Below the pieces are notes generated by a model. The model was not told the DNA's origin. It saw only the letters and a list, made by a program, of their open reading frames with translations, and did no database searches. Below are positions 39,128 to 45,198 of a stretch of DNA of 56,678 nt, in pieces. The position numbers and the translations under genes are program-made. This stretch comes from an uncultured Flavobacteriales bacterium (GTDB taxonomy: Bacteria > Bacteroidota > Bacteroidia > Flavobacteriales_E > Vicingaceae): NCBI GenBank assembly GCA_913048175.1, contig CAJWVX010000003.1:1-56678 (forward strand). Reading direction: 5' to 3'. Position 1 is the stretch's first letter, and each line of letters opens with the position of its first letter.

Positions 39128-40111
39128 TTAGAATTTAATCACCTCTTTTAGTTGAATAATTTCCACCTCTCCAAACTGTTTTAATTGATCCTGATCCATT
39201 TTACTTTTATCCCCATAAATGGTTATTACCCTTGGCTTTCCTTTTATAGAACTTTCGTAAAACTTAACTATTTGATCCATAGTTAAATTCTCGTATTGTT
39301 GGTAGGCATCAATATTAGGATCCTGTTTAAATCCCTGATTTTGATAATATGAAATATGCTCATCAAGTTTTTTAAAATTAGGGTAGCTACTTACTGTACT
39401 TAATTTTAAGCTTTTTTGTAAAGAATTTATTCTTTCAGGTTTCTGAGGCATATTATTCATTAAGCTATCCAATACTGTTATAGCTTTAATTGTTTTATCT
39501 GCCTGACAACCAATGTAACCATAAAAAAATGCGTTAGATTTTACAGGAAAAATGTATCCTCCTCCTGTAGAATAAGCCAATGAACGATACTCTCTTATTT
39601 CTTGAGTGATTATTCCACTAAACCCGCCAGCAAAATAACTGTTAAATGCTTTGAGTTTTGCATACTCAGAGAAGTCACGTTTATCATCTGGAATATAAAA
39701 GTAAACCTGACTTTGAATTGCCTTTTTATCATGAACTATAATTACTTTGTTTTTAGATAAAGGCGCTCTTTCTCTTTCTAAATAAGGCTCTTCTTTATCA
39801 TTACTAAACAGATCAACTTCTTTTTCTAAGGCACTTTTAATATCATTAAGTGAAACATTTCCAACATAAGAAATTTCTGTTTTATAGTATTCAACAACAG
39901 TTTTATAAATTGCGATTAATTCAGAAGGACTCATCTTGTTAATTTCCTTCTGAGAAAACCTTAATAAAAATTTAGATTGACTTTTACATTGGGCATAACT
40001 GAGAAGTGCACGCCCCATTAAAGATCTGTCTCGCTTCTCTCGCTTCCGGTCTAGTTTTACCGTTTTCAACATTAAAGCAAAGCCTTTTTCATCCTCTTTA
40101 GGCTCTTTCAA
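39128..40111 (-). CDS. M16 peptidase, C-terminal part (separated by a probable frameshift)
   Basis: 327 aa beginning at a TTG that overlaps the stop of the upstream part (TTGA). It corresponds to the last M16 domain: RSLMGRALLSYAQCKSQSKF, MSPSELIAIYKTVVEYY, AFNSYFAGGFSGIITQEIRE with the conserved R-EYRSLAYS substrate-binding segment, and a C-terminal helix pair. Its first residues (KEPKEDEKGFAL) continue the helix that ends abruptly in the preceding frame. It has no signal peptide, so on its own it could not reach the envelope. Best read as the 3' end of a single broken or misassembled gene; independent coupled translation is possible but less likely. Confidence 0.65.
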   Translation of the reverse strand: MKEPKEDEKGFALMLKTVKLDRKREKRDRSLMGRALLSYAQCKSQSKFLLRFSQKEINKMSPSELIAIYKTVVEYYKTEISYVGNVSLNDIKSALEKEVDLFSNDKEEPYLERERAPLSKNKVIIVHDKKAIQSQVYFYIPDDKRDFSEYAKLKAFNSYFAGGFSGIITQEIREYRSLAYSTGGGYIFPVKSNAFFYGYIGCQADKTIKAITVLDSLMNNMPQKPERINSLQKSLKLSTVSSYPNFKKLDEHISYYQNQGFKQDPNIDAYQQYENLTMDQIVKFYESSIKGKPRVITIYGDKSKMDQDQLKQFGEVEIIQLKEVIKF

Positions 40112-42024
40112 TAATAATTAATTAATGCTATTGCAGATTTCAAGTTAACATCACTACCGTTTACAGTTAGAGTAATATAGTTCTCATTACAAGAAAATAA
40201 ATAACTACACCCAATATTGCTAAATGCTTTCTTTAATTCTGAATATGAATATTTTCCTGCGCCTGAATAATTCATTAAATCAACAGCAACTTTTAGATTT
40301 TCATTATTTAATTGACCCTTTTTAAACTTTACTGTTAAGTAAAACAAGTCATTTACTGGGTTAGTCGTTTTTATTAAAGAGTGACTTTTATAAATAGTTG
40401 TTTTCTCCACATCATTCTCAAAATCTAAAAACTTAGGTTGAAACGATTGCGATGGAATATTCTTGAAGCTTTTCGCATAAATTGAACTGTCTTTTTGAGT
40501 TCTTGAAACAGCTTTAAATGGCGGCTTGTCTAATTTTACTTTTTTAGGAAACCCTGTTCTCGATATTATTTTAGACCTTTGCTTACCAAAATATTTTTGA
40601 GCTACTCGAACAATATCCTCCTTGGTTACTTCATTTATTTTCTTAGGATAATCCATATAATCTTTCCAAGGTATTCCTTGACTAAACGCTGTTCCGATTG
40701 CAACACCTCTACCATCCAATTGCTCCATCTCTTGCTGAAACTGTTTACTCAACTCAAATTTAGAGGTATTAAATAAATCAGAAGAAAAGTCTCCCACTTT
40801 GAGCTTATTAAATACTGCCTCAATTTTTTTATCCGTATTCCTTATCGATTGGATAAATGGCTTAGGAATAGCAATAACGGAAAAAGATCCTGTGTGATTA
40901 TATTTTTGTGGTATTCCGAAAACAAACATAACCTCATTATTTTCAGACAGCTGATCCATTAAACCTGTTTCTGAATCATTTGTAATCATATTTTCACACG
41001 CATCTAAAGCAACTCTATCTGTATGATTATGAGGAACAGTTTGCCACTCTAAAATTTCTATTTTAATTGGCGTTATTCTTATTTTCTTAACCAAACCTTC
41101 AGCCAAAGGTTCTAATTCTGGCAATTGCAAAATGGGAGCTTCTCTACCCGACAAGGCTTTAAATTTTTCAGCAATAAGCGGCAACACTTCTTTACGATTA
41201 AAGTTACCTGTAAGAATTAATGCCATATTTTTGGCTACGTAATGTTTTTCATAAAAGGCTTTCATTTTTATTAATGAGGGCTTTTTTAGATGCTCAACAG
41301 TTCCTAAACCCCCCCATTTACCATAAGGAAGGTTGGGAAAGTTCGCTTTATTCATCTCTTCAAATATTCGATTTTCCATCCCGTCCATTGCTCTATTTTT
41401 CTCTTCATAAACCACTTCTAGTTCTGATTGGAAAGATCTAAAAACTGGATTTTCAAATCTTGTAGCATAAAGATCTAGCCATTTTTCTATCTCGTGAGTA
41501 GGAAAGGAATTATGATAAAAAGTCATATCATAAGACGTAAATGCATTAATATTTGTTCCTCCAATACTTTTTAATAATTTATCAAATTCATTTGGCAAAC
41601 CATATTTAGCAGATTTTACAGCTAATTCATTTATCTGTTTTTGAATTTTAAATTGTTTATCTCTATCTAACTCTAAAGCCAATTGTTCATACAAATAACT
41701 TATAGAATCTAACAATGGCTTTTCTTCGTAATAATTTGATGTCCCTAATTTTGTTGTTCCTTTAAAAAGTAAATGCTCTAAATAATGTGCCATACCTGTA
41801 GCGTCTTCAGATTCGTTAACAGCTCCGGCCTTTACCATTACAGCTCCAAACATTTTTGTTGCAGTAGGATCTTCGTTTAAAAAAATGGTTAACCCATTTT
41901 CTAATTTATGAGAGCTTACGTTTAGCACGCTTTGTTTTTGTGCCAACAAATATTGACTCACTACGATTAACAGGATTAAAAAAGAGCTTTTTAAATTTAT
42001 ATAATTTATTTTTTTGATAAACAT
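40108..42024 (-). CDS. M16 zinc peptidase (insulinase/pitrilysin family), N-terminal part
   Basis: 638 aa. Signal peptide (FLILLIVVSQYLLAQ), then the catalytic M16 domain with the inverted zinc motif HYLEH at residues 80-84 and the downstream glutamate in VVYEEKNRAMDGMENRIFEE, so the active site is intact. Two further M16 domains follow, and the fourth begins (VDLMNYSGAGKYSYSELKKA) but is cut off after IALINYY by TGA. With the next frame the total is about 965 residues, the normal size of periplasmic four-domain M16 peptidases. One extra base in the AT-rich run ATTATTATTG would rejoin the frames as INYYLKEPKED. Confidence 0.8.
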   Translation of the reverse strand: MFIKKINYINLKSSFLILLIVVSQYLLAQKQSVLNVSSHKLENGLTIFLNEDPTATKMFGAVMVKAGAVNESEDATGMAHYLEHLLFKGTTKLGTSNYYEEKPLLDSISYLYEQLALELDRDKQFKIQKQINELAVKSAKYGLPNEFDKLLKSIGGTNINAFTSYDMTFYHNSFPTHEIEKWLDLYATRFENPVFRSFQSELEVVYEEKNRAMDGMENRIFEEMNKANFPNLPYGKWGGLGTVEHLKKPSLIKMKAFYEKHYVAKNMALILTGNFNRKEVLPLIAEKFKALSGREAPILQLPELEPLAEGLVKKIRITPIKIEILEWQTVPHNHTDRVALDACENMITNDSETGLMDQLSENNEVMFVFGIPQKYNHTGSFSVIAIPKPFIQSIRNTDKKIEAVFNKLKVGDFSSDLFNTSKFELSKQFQQEMEQLDGRGVAIGTAFSQGIPWKDYMDYPKKINEVTKEDIVRVAQKYFGKQRSKIISRTGFPKKVKLDKPPFKAVSRTQKDSSIYAKSFKNIPSQSFQPKFLDFENDVEKTTIYKSHSLIKTTNPVNDLFYLTVKFKKGQLNNENLKVAVDLMNYSGAGKYSYSELKKAFSNIGCSYLFSCNENYITLTVNGSDVNLKSAIALINYY

Positions 42025-42279: not shown

Positions 42280-42287
42280 TAAATTTG
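42280..42287 (+). promoter_or_regulatory. Predicted -7 element of the hem operon promoter
   Basis: TAAATTTG is an exact TAnnTTTG match, ending 18 bases before the ATG at 42306. It overlaps the alternative in-frame TTG at 42285, which therefore cannot be the start. No clear upstream element at the usual distance. Confidence 0.45.
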
Positions 42288-42305: not shown

Positions 42306-44492
42306 ATGGATAAAGTAGTAGGAGTTGAATTAAGTCATAGGTTTGCACCCATAGCGGTTAGAGAGAGGTTAGCTTTAAACAATGAGCAAACCATTGCGGC
42401 TTTGCAAGAATTAAAAAAAAGTTACGAGGAGGTTTTCATTATTTCGACTTGCAACAGATTATCTATTTATGCTTATGGAAAAAGCCATAACGAAATTTTA
42501 GATTATTTTGACAAGTTCGGAAATTACCGACAATACTTATCAATATTACCTGACAGTGAAATTGCTATTCGGAATTTATTTTCTACAGCTGCGGGATTAG
42601 AATCTCAAGCAATTGGTGAGCATCAAATTACAGGACAAATTAGAGCCGGATTAGATTTAGGTAGAGAATATAAAACAATTGGTCCTATTTTAGATGAATT
42701 AATTAGACAGAGTTTACACACTGGAAAACGGGTTAGGCTAGAAACAAATATTGGGAAATTTTCTGCATCATTGGCAACAGTTGGTTTCGAATTAATTACG
42801 AAGCACGATTACGAAATGTCTGAAACCACCTTTTTGGTTATTGGTACTGGAAACATGGCCAATTTAGTAACTACCGTTTTAGATAGAACAAAAATTAAAA
42901 AACTATATGTTGCCAGTCACGATATAACTCGTGCTAAAGAAATGGCTAAAGAATGGGATGGCGAAGCTGTTGACATGGAAAACATGCACACTGCATTATC
43001 CGAAGCGAATGTTATTATTGGAGGAACGCAAGGCGAGATAAACTTACTGCATGAAGAAACAATGGCAGAAAGTAAATGTCCTAGAGCAAATTTTGCTCTA
43101 CAAGCGGGAGGGCATAAATTGTTTATTGATTTTGGTGTTCCAAGAAACTTTAATCCTTCCTTAAAAAATGACCTCAATATTTCTCTATATGATTTAGATG
43201 ACATTAAGAAGATTACCTACAATGGTTTGCTAAAAAGGTATGATGAAATTCCGCTGGCCAGAAAGCTGGTTAATGAGGAATTGGATTGGTACATGATTTG
43301 GTTAAGAAACAGAAAGGTAGCTCCGGTTATTGAAGCTTACTGGAACAACATGGAAAACATTAAAGAAGAGGAACTTAAATGGCTTCTTCCCAAAATGGGC
43401 GATATTGACGAAAAAACGAAAGAATTATTAAGTCGATTTACGCATCGCTTATTGAGAAAAATATCCAATCCAACTATTGATGGGATTAAAAACATAGCTC
43501 AAAACATACACGAACAAGACAACCCTATTAATACTGCTAAAAAGATTTTAGACATTGAAGGTGTTGATGTATTTGTTCCTAAGAAAAAGATTATTGTTGG
43601 AACACGAGGAAGTAAGTTAGCATTAACTCAAACCAATTGGATTATTGACCAGTTAAAAAAGGTTCAGCCAGATTACGAATTTGAAACAAAGATAATTAGA
43701 ACTTCTGGTGATGAAGGAAATATTGATGTAGTTGGAGCATTTACTTCTGCCCTGCAGAGATCTATGTTAGCTGGAGAAATTGATATTGCAATACATAGCT
43801 ACAAAGATATACCGACTGAAGAAGTTGTTGGATTAAGAGTTCTACCAGTTACCCCAAGAAGAGATGTCAGAGATGTCTTAATTTCTAAAGAAGGTAAAAC
43901 TTTAGCTGAATTACCTAAAGGAGCAGTTATTGGAACTGGAAGTTTAAGAAGAAGTTCTCAATTAATGCAAATTAGACCAGATTTAGAATATAAATTTATA
44001 CAAGGAAACGTTGAAGGCCGAATTCGCAAAATGGAAACCGAAGGTTATGATGCTATTATTTTAGCCGCAACTGGTTTAGAAAAAATGAATATGCTTGATG
44101 TTGCAACAGAAATTTTTGAAACGGATGTAATGCTTCCAGCAGTTGGACAGGCAATATTAGGGATTGAATTAATTGACCAAGCAGGAGACATTTTGGAATT
44201 GGTTAAAAAATTAAAACACGAACCAACCAAAAATGCTGCAGATGCAGAAAGAGCTTTTTTAATTGCTTTGGGTGGTGGTTGTAATATGCCAATTGCAGCC
44301 TATGCTCAGGCCACAGAAACTGAAATATCTATTGAAGGTGTTTACGCATCTGAAGATGGCAAACATTTTGAAAGAGCAACAATATCGGGAAGTATTGAAA
44401 ACAAAAAGACATTAGCAAGAACTTTAGCTACACAGCTAAAAGAAAAAATAGAAAGTAAAAGAAAAGTAGTTTTAATTGATGCAACTACTTAA
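42306..44492 (+). CDS. hemA-hemC: Fused glutamyl-tRNA reductase / hydroxymethylbilane synthase (HemA-HemC)
   Basis: 728 aa from the ATG at 42306. Residues 1-410 are a complete glutamyl-tRNA reductase: VELSHRFAPIAVRERLAL, catalytic cysteine C49 in FIISTCNRLSIYAYG, the AAGLESQAIGEHQITGQIR segment, the NADPH fold VIGTGNMANLV near 178, and the helical dimerisation domain (FTHRLLRKISNPTIDGIKNI). After a linker (NPINTAKKILDIEGVDVFVP) residues 425-728 are a complete hydroxymethylbilane synthase: KIIVGTRGSKLALTQTNWI, IHSYKDIPTE, GTGSLRRSSQLMQIRPDLEY, GNVEGRIRKMETEGYDAIIL and the cofactor cysteine C659 in LGGGCNMPIAAYA. No start codon or stop separates the halves. The enzymes act at the first and the later tetrapyrrole-forming steps. 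hemD follows with a 14-base overlap. Confidence 0.93.
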   Translation: MDKVVGVELSHRFAPIAVRERLALNNEQTIAALQELKKSYEEVFIISTCNRLSIYAYGKSHNEILDYFDKFGNYRQYLSILPDSEIAIRNLFSTAAGLESQAIGEHQITGQIRAGLDLGREYKTIGPILDELIRQSLHTGKRVRLETNIGKFSASLATVGFELITKHDYEMSETTFLVIGTGNMANLVTTVLDRTKIKKLYVASHDITRAKEMAKEWDGEAVDMENMHTALSEANVIIGGTQGEINLLHEETMAESKCPRANFALQAGGHKLFIDFGVPRNFNPSLKNDLNISLYDLDDIKKITYNGLLKRYDEIPLARKLVNEELDWYMIWLRNRKVAPVIEAYWNNMENIKEEELKWLLPKMGDIDEKTKELLSRFTHRLLRKISNPTIDGIKNIAQNIHEQDNPINTAKKILDIEGVDVFVPKKKIIVGTRGSKLALTQTNWIIDQLKKVQPDYEFETKIIRTSGDEGNIDVVGAFTSALQRSMLAGEIDIAIHSYKDIPTEEVVGLRVLPVTPRRDVRDVLISKEGKTLAELPKGAVIGTGSLRRSSQLMQIRPDLEYKFIQGNVEGRIRKMETEGYDAIILAATGLEKMNMLDVATEIFETDVMLPAVGQAILGIELIDQAGDILELVKKLKHEPTKNAADAERAFLIALGGGCNMPIAAYAQATETEISIEGVYASEDGKHFERATISGSIENKKTLARTLATQLKEKIESKRKVVLIDATT

Positions 44493-45198
44493 CCAAAAAA
44501 CTGTGTTAATTACTCGTTCTGCTGATCAGACAGCAGAATTTATAATTCAGTTACAAAATTTAGGTGCTCAAACGATTTCTTTACCTCTTATAAAAAACTC
44601 CCCTATAAATGAGCAAGAATTAAAAAAAATCTTTAATTCTGAAAAATATGATTGGCTTATTTTTTCAAGTACAAATGCTGTAAAATTCTTTTTTGACTGC
44701 ATAAATTTAAATAGCATAAATTCTAAAATTGCAGTTGTTGGCGAAAAAACTAAAAAAGCAATAGAAAATCTGGGACTAATAGTAGATTTTATTCCAACTC
44801 AATTTACGGCTAAAATGCTAGCCAAAGAACTTCCTATCTCACTAAATGATAGCATTCTGATACCAAGATCTAATTTAGCTAAAAATGATATTGTTACAGT
44901 TTTAGAAAGCCGAAACTGTAATGTTAAAACGTTTTCTATTTATAAAAACAGCTCAATTCATTACTCAAAAAACGAACGGGACAGTATCTTTAATCAAAAA
45001 ATTGATTACATCACATTTACAAGTGGCTCTACGGTCAAATCTTTTGTAGAATTAGGATTTAGACCAAACAATGAAAAAATCATCTGTATTGGTCCTGAAA
45101 CAGCTAAAATTGCAGAAGAAAACAGTCTTGTTGTTTCAGCAATTGCAAATCCTCATACAATTGAAGGAATGATTGAGGCAATAAAATCTTTAGATTAA
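44479..45198 (+). CDS. hemD: Uroporphyrinogen-III synthase
   Basis: 239 aa from the ATG at 44479, overlapping the end of the hemA-hemC fusion by 14 bases; a TTG one codon earlier is less likely. Closes and rearranges hydroxymethylbilane to uroporphyrinogen III. The family is poorly conserved, but the pattern fits: KTVLITRSADQTAEFI at the N terminus, YDWLIFSSTNAVKFFF, IAVVGEKTKKAIENLG, DSILIPRSNLAKND, IDYITFTSGSTVKSF, IICIGPETAKIAEEN and the terminal HTIEGMIEAI helix. Its position directly behind HemC, whose unstable product it uses, supports the call. Confidence 0.9.
   Translation: MQLLNQKTVLITRSADQTAEFIIQLQNLGAQTISLPLIKNSPINEQELKKIFNSEKYDWLIFSSTNAVKFFFDCINLNSINSKIAVVGEKTKKAIENLGLIVDFIPTQFTAKMLAKELPISLNDSILIPRSNLAKNDIVTVLESRNCNVKTFSIYKNSSIHYSKNERDSIFNQKIDYITFTSGSTVKSFVELGFRPNNEKIICIGPETAKIAEENSLVVSAIANPHTIEGMIEAIKSLD

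Follow-up and report, generated by a model that had tools for sequence, protein, structure and literature searches.

The joined gene hemAC, in which a glutamyl-tRNA reductase (HemA) runs on into a hydroxymethylbilane synthase (HemC), is real and conserved in one family of Bacteroidota, and it is undescribed in the literature searchable here: outside subscription journals, the titles and abstract openings among the matches listed held no report of a HemA–HemC fusion. In the window, by which we mean the whole 56,678-nucleotide stretch of DNA analysed, the gene lies at 42306–44492 on the plus strand and encodes 728 amino acids in a single uninterrupted frame. Taken as a whole, the explanation that we consider highly probable is that hemAC encodes a bifunctional enzyme, built from two catalytic modules each of which is complete and folds on its own, that it originated by stop loss between neighbouring genes and that its effect is one of equal dosage.

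Two complete enzymes in one chain

The frame starts at ATG 42306, a TTG at 42285 being a possible alternative, and falls into three parts on the plus strand. The HemA module (residues 1–416; 42306–43553) carries the Pfam domains GlutR_N (7–147), NADPH-binding Shikimate_DH (170–303) and GlutR_dimer (318–416), with fold matches to 1gpj, 5che and 4n7r; a linker of about 12 residues (417–428; 43554–43589) then leads into the HemC module (429–712; 43590–44441), which consists of Porphobil_deam (429–626) and Porphobil_deamC (645–712) and whose fold matches 4mlq and 1pda. Both halves pass the NCBIfam equivalog tests, with 274.9 bits against a cut-off of 209.55 for TIGR01035 and 296 bits against a cut-off of 164 for TIGR00212, and domains and scores together bear out the preliminary description, made from the sequence alone, of a complete HemA and a complete HemC in a single chain. 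Set beside the HemA of TIGR01035, HemAC is alike in all three domains, the catalytic cysteine and a score above the curated cut-off, and differs in a C-terminus that continues into HemC; set beside the HemC of TIGR00212, it shares both domains, the catalytic aspartate and the cofactor cysteine but lacks a start codon of its own for the HemC half and has a shortened lid loop.

The two cysteines named in the preliminary description are likewise upheld by alignment, each being invariant in 17/17 fused rows: C49 (codon 42450–42452, plus strand), the catalytic residue, stands in a STCNR motif that aligns with the same motif in Arabidopsis GluTR (4n7r), the 1gpj chain having a serine there, and C659 (codon 44280–44282, plus strand) binds the dipyrromethane cofactor in a GGGC loop. 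Alignment to PDB chains places the catalytic aspartate of HemC at D501 (codon 43806–43808, plus strand), opposite the residue that differs between 4mlq and 5ov4, 5ov5 and 5ov6, the last three being titled as D82A/E/N mutants. Completeness, retained catalytic residues and the single copy found in the own genome can be read off directly, and both modules are probably active. Codon comparison shows both halves to be under purifying selection, pN/pS against nine relatives lying well below 1, at 0.075–0.21 for HemA and 0.063–0.39 for HemC, rough values with dS near or beyond saturation in most pairs; the 0.12–0.47 obtained for the linker carries no weight, as it comes from 12 codons. The AlphaFold2 monomer model (pLDDT 83.2, pTM 0.49), in which one half resembles solved GluTR structures and the other those of PBG deaminase, fits two folded modules that hold no fixed pose relative to each other.

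According to the preliminary description, a stop or frameshift at the junction, or separate hemA and hemC genes elsewhere in the genome, would speak against a true fusion, and neither was encountered. The junction is free of stops in 43/43 matching genomes of the order (46 searched) and is also open in a named strain, S-15 of Acidiluteibacter ferrifornacis; in the own genome, 90% complete, the lone PF01379 match and the lone PF05201 match are both the hemAC frame, and no second HemA or HemC was found. Downstream, hemD (uroporphyrinogen-III synthase; 44479–45198, plus strand) starts at ATG 44479 or TTG 44476, inside the end of hemAC, in keeping with the overlap described earlier, and follows hemAC in 41/42 fused loci of the species-collection scan presented below, L041 running off its contig; hemD was not found beside the fused L110. 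The genes hemB, hemL and hemE follow one another on a different contig of this genome (C5; L165:6422-9937). Between 41900 and 45400, scans returned 13 promoter-like sites (14.3 expected) and 4 terminator-like sites (1.9 expected), the latter result not being used as evidence. On the minus strand at 39128–42024, two overlapping frames of 638 and 327 amino acids each contain M16 peptidase domains and represent either two genes or one broken gene.

Distribution in the Bacteroidota

The preliminary description judged the spread of the fusion worth mapping, and we have mapped it within Bacteroidota. The order sample comprised 46 genomes, all under one family code, and 43 of them match: 40 with the full uninterrupted fusion, two (G044 and G004) with a partial hemAC whose junction is open, and one (G052) with a stop late in HemC. 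The remaining G002, G005 and G022 (91%, 98% and 79% complete) yielded no HemA and no HemC, reflecting either gaps in these metagenome-assembled genomes (MAGs) or true loss; G002 and G005, which belong to the same genus and possess hemB, may alternatively need imported precursors. Across the family, the fusion is kept down to 51–60% identity with the window protein.

The wider search scanned a collection of 84,980 species with two HemA motifs of the fused clade and gave 47 loci; fusions outside Bacteroidota were sought by this two-motif scan alone, and one involving another HemA type would escape it. Both domains lie in one frame in 42/47 loci, with L050 lacking a start and L067 broken late in HemC, while in L071, L076 and L077 an unfused hemC adjoins hemA, L075 is HemA alone and L078 a piece at a contig end. 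Locus titles include Vicingaceae bacteria, a MAG named "Vicingus serpentipes" and Acidiluteibacter ferrifornacis strain S-15. In samples of 395 genomes each for class and phylum, which share genomes and whose counts cover the listed rows, the uninterrupted fusions were 15 of the family plus G118 in the class and the window row alone in the phylum. G118 belongs to another order, where one of 12 genomes is fused, three have hemA beside an unfused hemC and eight give no match; together with the MAG locus L073, it makes up the two fused cases found beyond the order's matching genomes and the named strain. L073 is sister to the family rows in the joined HemA–HemC tree (95/91) and so may be an early member of the family or a neighbour.

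The HemA of the fused type also occurs by itself, in G091 (locus L111, L075 being the same HemA), and the only PF01379 match of G091 is a 537-aa frame on another contig. In G041, taken as Acidiluteibacter ferrifornacis, a further HemA (L125) stands alone and scores above the TIGR01035 cut-off, and the fused HemA half is thus not always the sole HemA.

Origin of the fusion

The probable route to hemAC starts from hemA and hemC as in-frame neighbours and would require nothing beyond the loss of a stop: the two genes are adjacent in the unfused sisters, and among the 40 two-gene rows listed besides the window in the phylum sample, all of them interrupted by one or more stops, 34 have exactly one in-frame stop between the genes. 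Since the two genes are so often in-frame neighbours in Bacteroidota, it is gene order that sets the fusion partner, and pathway order need not enter into it.

On how many times the genes were joined, tree and linker point in different directions. Both the HemA and the HemC tree unite the fused rows with their close unfused sisters in one clade (SH-aLRT 99), which in the HemA tree stands apart from the HemA of 8/9 other Bacteroidia rows. The tree of the joined proteins, with 36 rows of which 22 are fused, has the fused state changing twice, not counting L075; L110, although fused, joins unfused relatives in the maximum-likelihood topology (93/85), and the constraint placing all 22 fused rows in one clade comes near rejection (p-AU 0.0535, in a test run without the nine further Bacteroidia rows, the paralog L125 and four rows on long branches, L157, L158, L159 and L160). 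The linker, on the other hand, makes one event likely, because the linkers of G118 and L073 resemble those of the family. Its length is equal in the family, L073 and L110, L016 being one residue shorter; compared with five family members, the L110 linker has 26 identities, reached by 0/20000 shuffles, and the L073 linker also 26, reached by 7/20000, whereas that of the fused L066, a locus whose position identifies it with G050 of the family, matches poorly with 11 (627/20000). Five unfused sisters share 0–3 of 10 linker positions with the family and more distant unfused rows 0–4 of 10, the unfused outgroup L133 reaching up to 4/10; the HemA of the unfused sisters ends at, or at most four residues past, the FDL/FNL/FDI at which the linker starts in the fused ones. 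Tree and linker are both accommodated if the genes were joined once and then separated again in the sisters of G118, or if the fused gene was transferred into G118, and we infer that the fusion predates the split of the family and arose most likely once, one or more re-splits or transfers having come later.

Possible roles of the joined enzyme

HemA opens the synthesis of heme precursors and HemC comes in three steps further on, so that the two catalyse nonconsecutive steps, with HemL and HemB acting in between. The HemA module would convert glutamyl-tRNA into glutamate-1-semialdehyde, which HemL and HemB, encoded elsewhere, would take on to porphobilinogen; the HemC module would then join four porphobilinogens into hydroxymethylbilane, to be closed to uroporphyrinogen III by HemD from the overlapping next gene. 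Known HemA relatives are homodimers. The Methanopyrus enzyme, for one, is described as a V-shaped homodimer (PMC7242693), and HemAC may similarly form a HemA-type dimer with one HemC hung from each C-terminus by the short linker. The effect would be that the entry enzyme and HemC are made one to one and removed together, rather than any handing over of product, and equal dosage of the two is the benefit that we prefer. The preliminary description thus stands in its true fusion of two full enzymes, the nonconsecutive steps and the hemD overlap; beside the joint control or scaffold that it put forward as possibilities, gene order offers a simpler cause of the pairing.

It is possible, though we do not favour it, that the loss of the stop was harmless and the joined protein has no special function. 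The abundance of neighbours one in-frame stop apart would agree with this, as would the persistence of sisters with hemA beside an unfused hemC, but a single new stop could undo the fusion and it has nevertheless been kept across the divergence of the family. A metabolon, in which HemL too would dock on the HemA dimer and the placement of HemC there would gather the early steps, appears unlikely: while the linker is short and contains the invariant pair P425 and K426 (17/17 fused rows, and 10/10 in a separate alignment), HemB acts in between and yet is unfused, hemL and hemB are on another contig, the monomer model, with its pTM of 0.49, does not point to any fixed arrangement and the choice of partner tracks gene order.

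The HemC half also stands out by its active-site loop. The loop corresponding to it in Arabidopsis HemC is described as a lid closing the active site, and in the human enzyme the same loop was followed structurally with a porphyria-linked mutant (PMC7907807). In row comparisons, the GD..GAF lid loop of HemAC (residues 468–479; 43707–43742, plus strand) is shortened to 12 residues, a length found in 44/44 distinct fused rows and, at 11–12 residues, in 5/5 distinct unfused sister rows, while 46 other distinct rows have 18 residues (45) or 16 (one); HemAC therefore departs from the usual lid length, a common feature of HemC rather than a condition for belonging to it. As fused rows and unfused sisters share the short loop, the shortening tracks the clade and not the fusion. 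One could speculate that a short-lid HemC evolved for a HemA–HemC complex that later became one chain, the HemAC dimer being an early metabolon core whose open active site is fed by nearby HemB, but we regard this as rather improbable.

That HemC is also produced by itself, through internal initiation or cleavage of the linker, is very improbable. Residues 416–426 form neither helix nor strand in the model, as might suit a cleavable linker, but no conserved start was found near the junction: from −40 to +5, at most 11/45 distinct fused frames have ATG, GTG or TTG at any one position (like the lid-loop counts, leaving out the two cut copies L126 and L127). In the window, the earlier reading of no internal ATG at the junction is confirmed for 43500–43650, where in-frame GTG and TTG are absent as well, and no Met codon occurs between hemAC residues 364 and 487. 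An artefact of assembly or sequencing, for which one might point to the window being one contig of a 252-contig, 90% complete assembly, is rejected as practically negligible, with the fusion in 43/46 genomes of the order and the junction open across these and the named strain.

Other early tetrapyrrole enzymes have been joined as well. In other Bacteroidia, PF01379 and PF02602 lie in one frame in 4/4 loci scanned (L025:2482-4038, L026:2641-4233, L029:163-1740 and L030:1408-3057), a HemC–HemD fusion that is like HemAC in that hemC has merged with one of the genes flanking it in the order hemA-hemC-hemD and unlike it in the partner, the end of HemC involved and the direct succession of the two enzymes. 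HemA–HemB and HemC–CobA–HemD fusions are reported from Archaea, HemA–HemB likewise joining nonconsecutive steps; the accessible part of that report places HemA–HemB in a single Sulfolobus assembly and does not name HemA–HemC (PMC11237513).

Overall, an entry enzyme that nature has stably fused to a later enzyme, together with unfused sisters for comparison, makes this clade a clean test system, in which it can be asked whether fusing nonconsecutive steps brings joint control, channelling or nothing. The same clade offers a naturally occurring HemC whose active-site loop is shortened.
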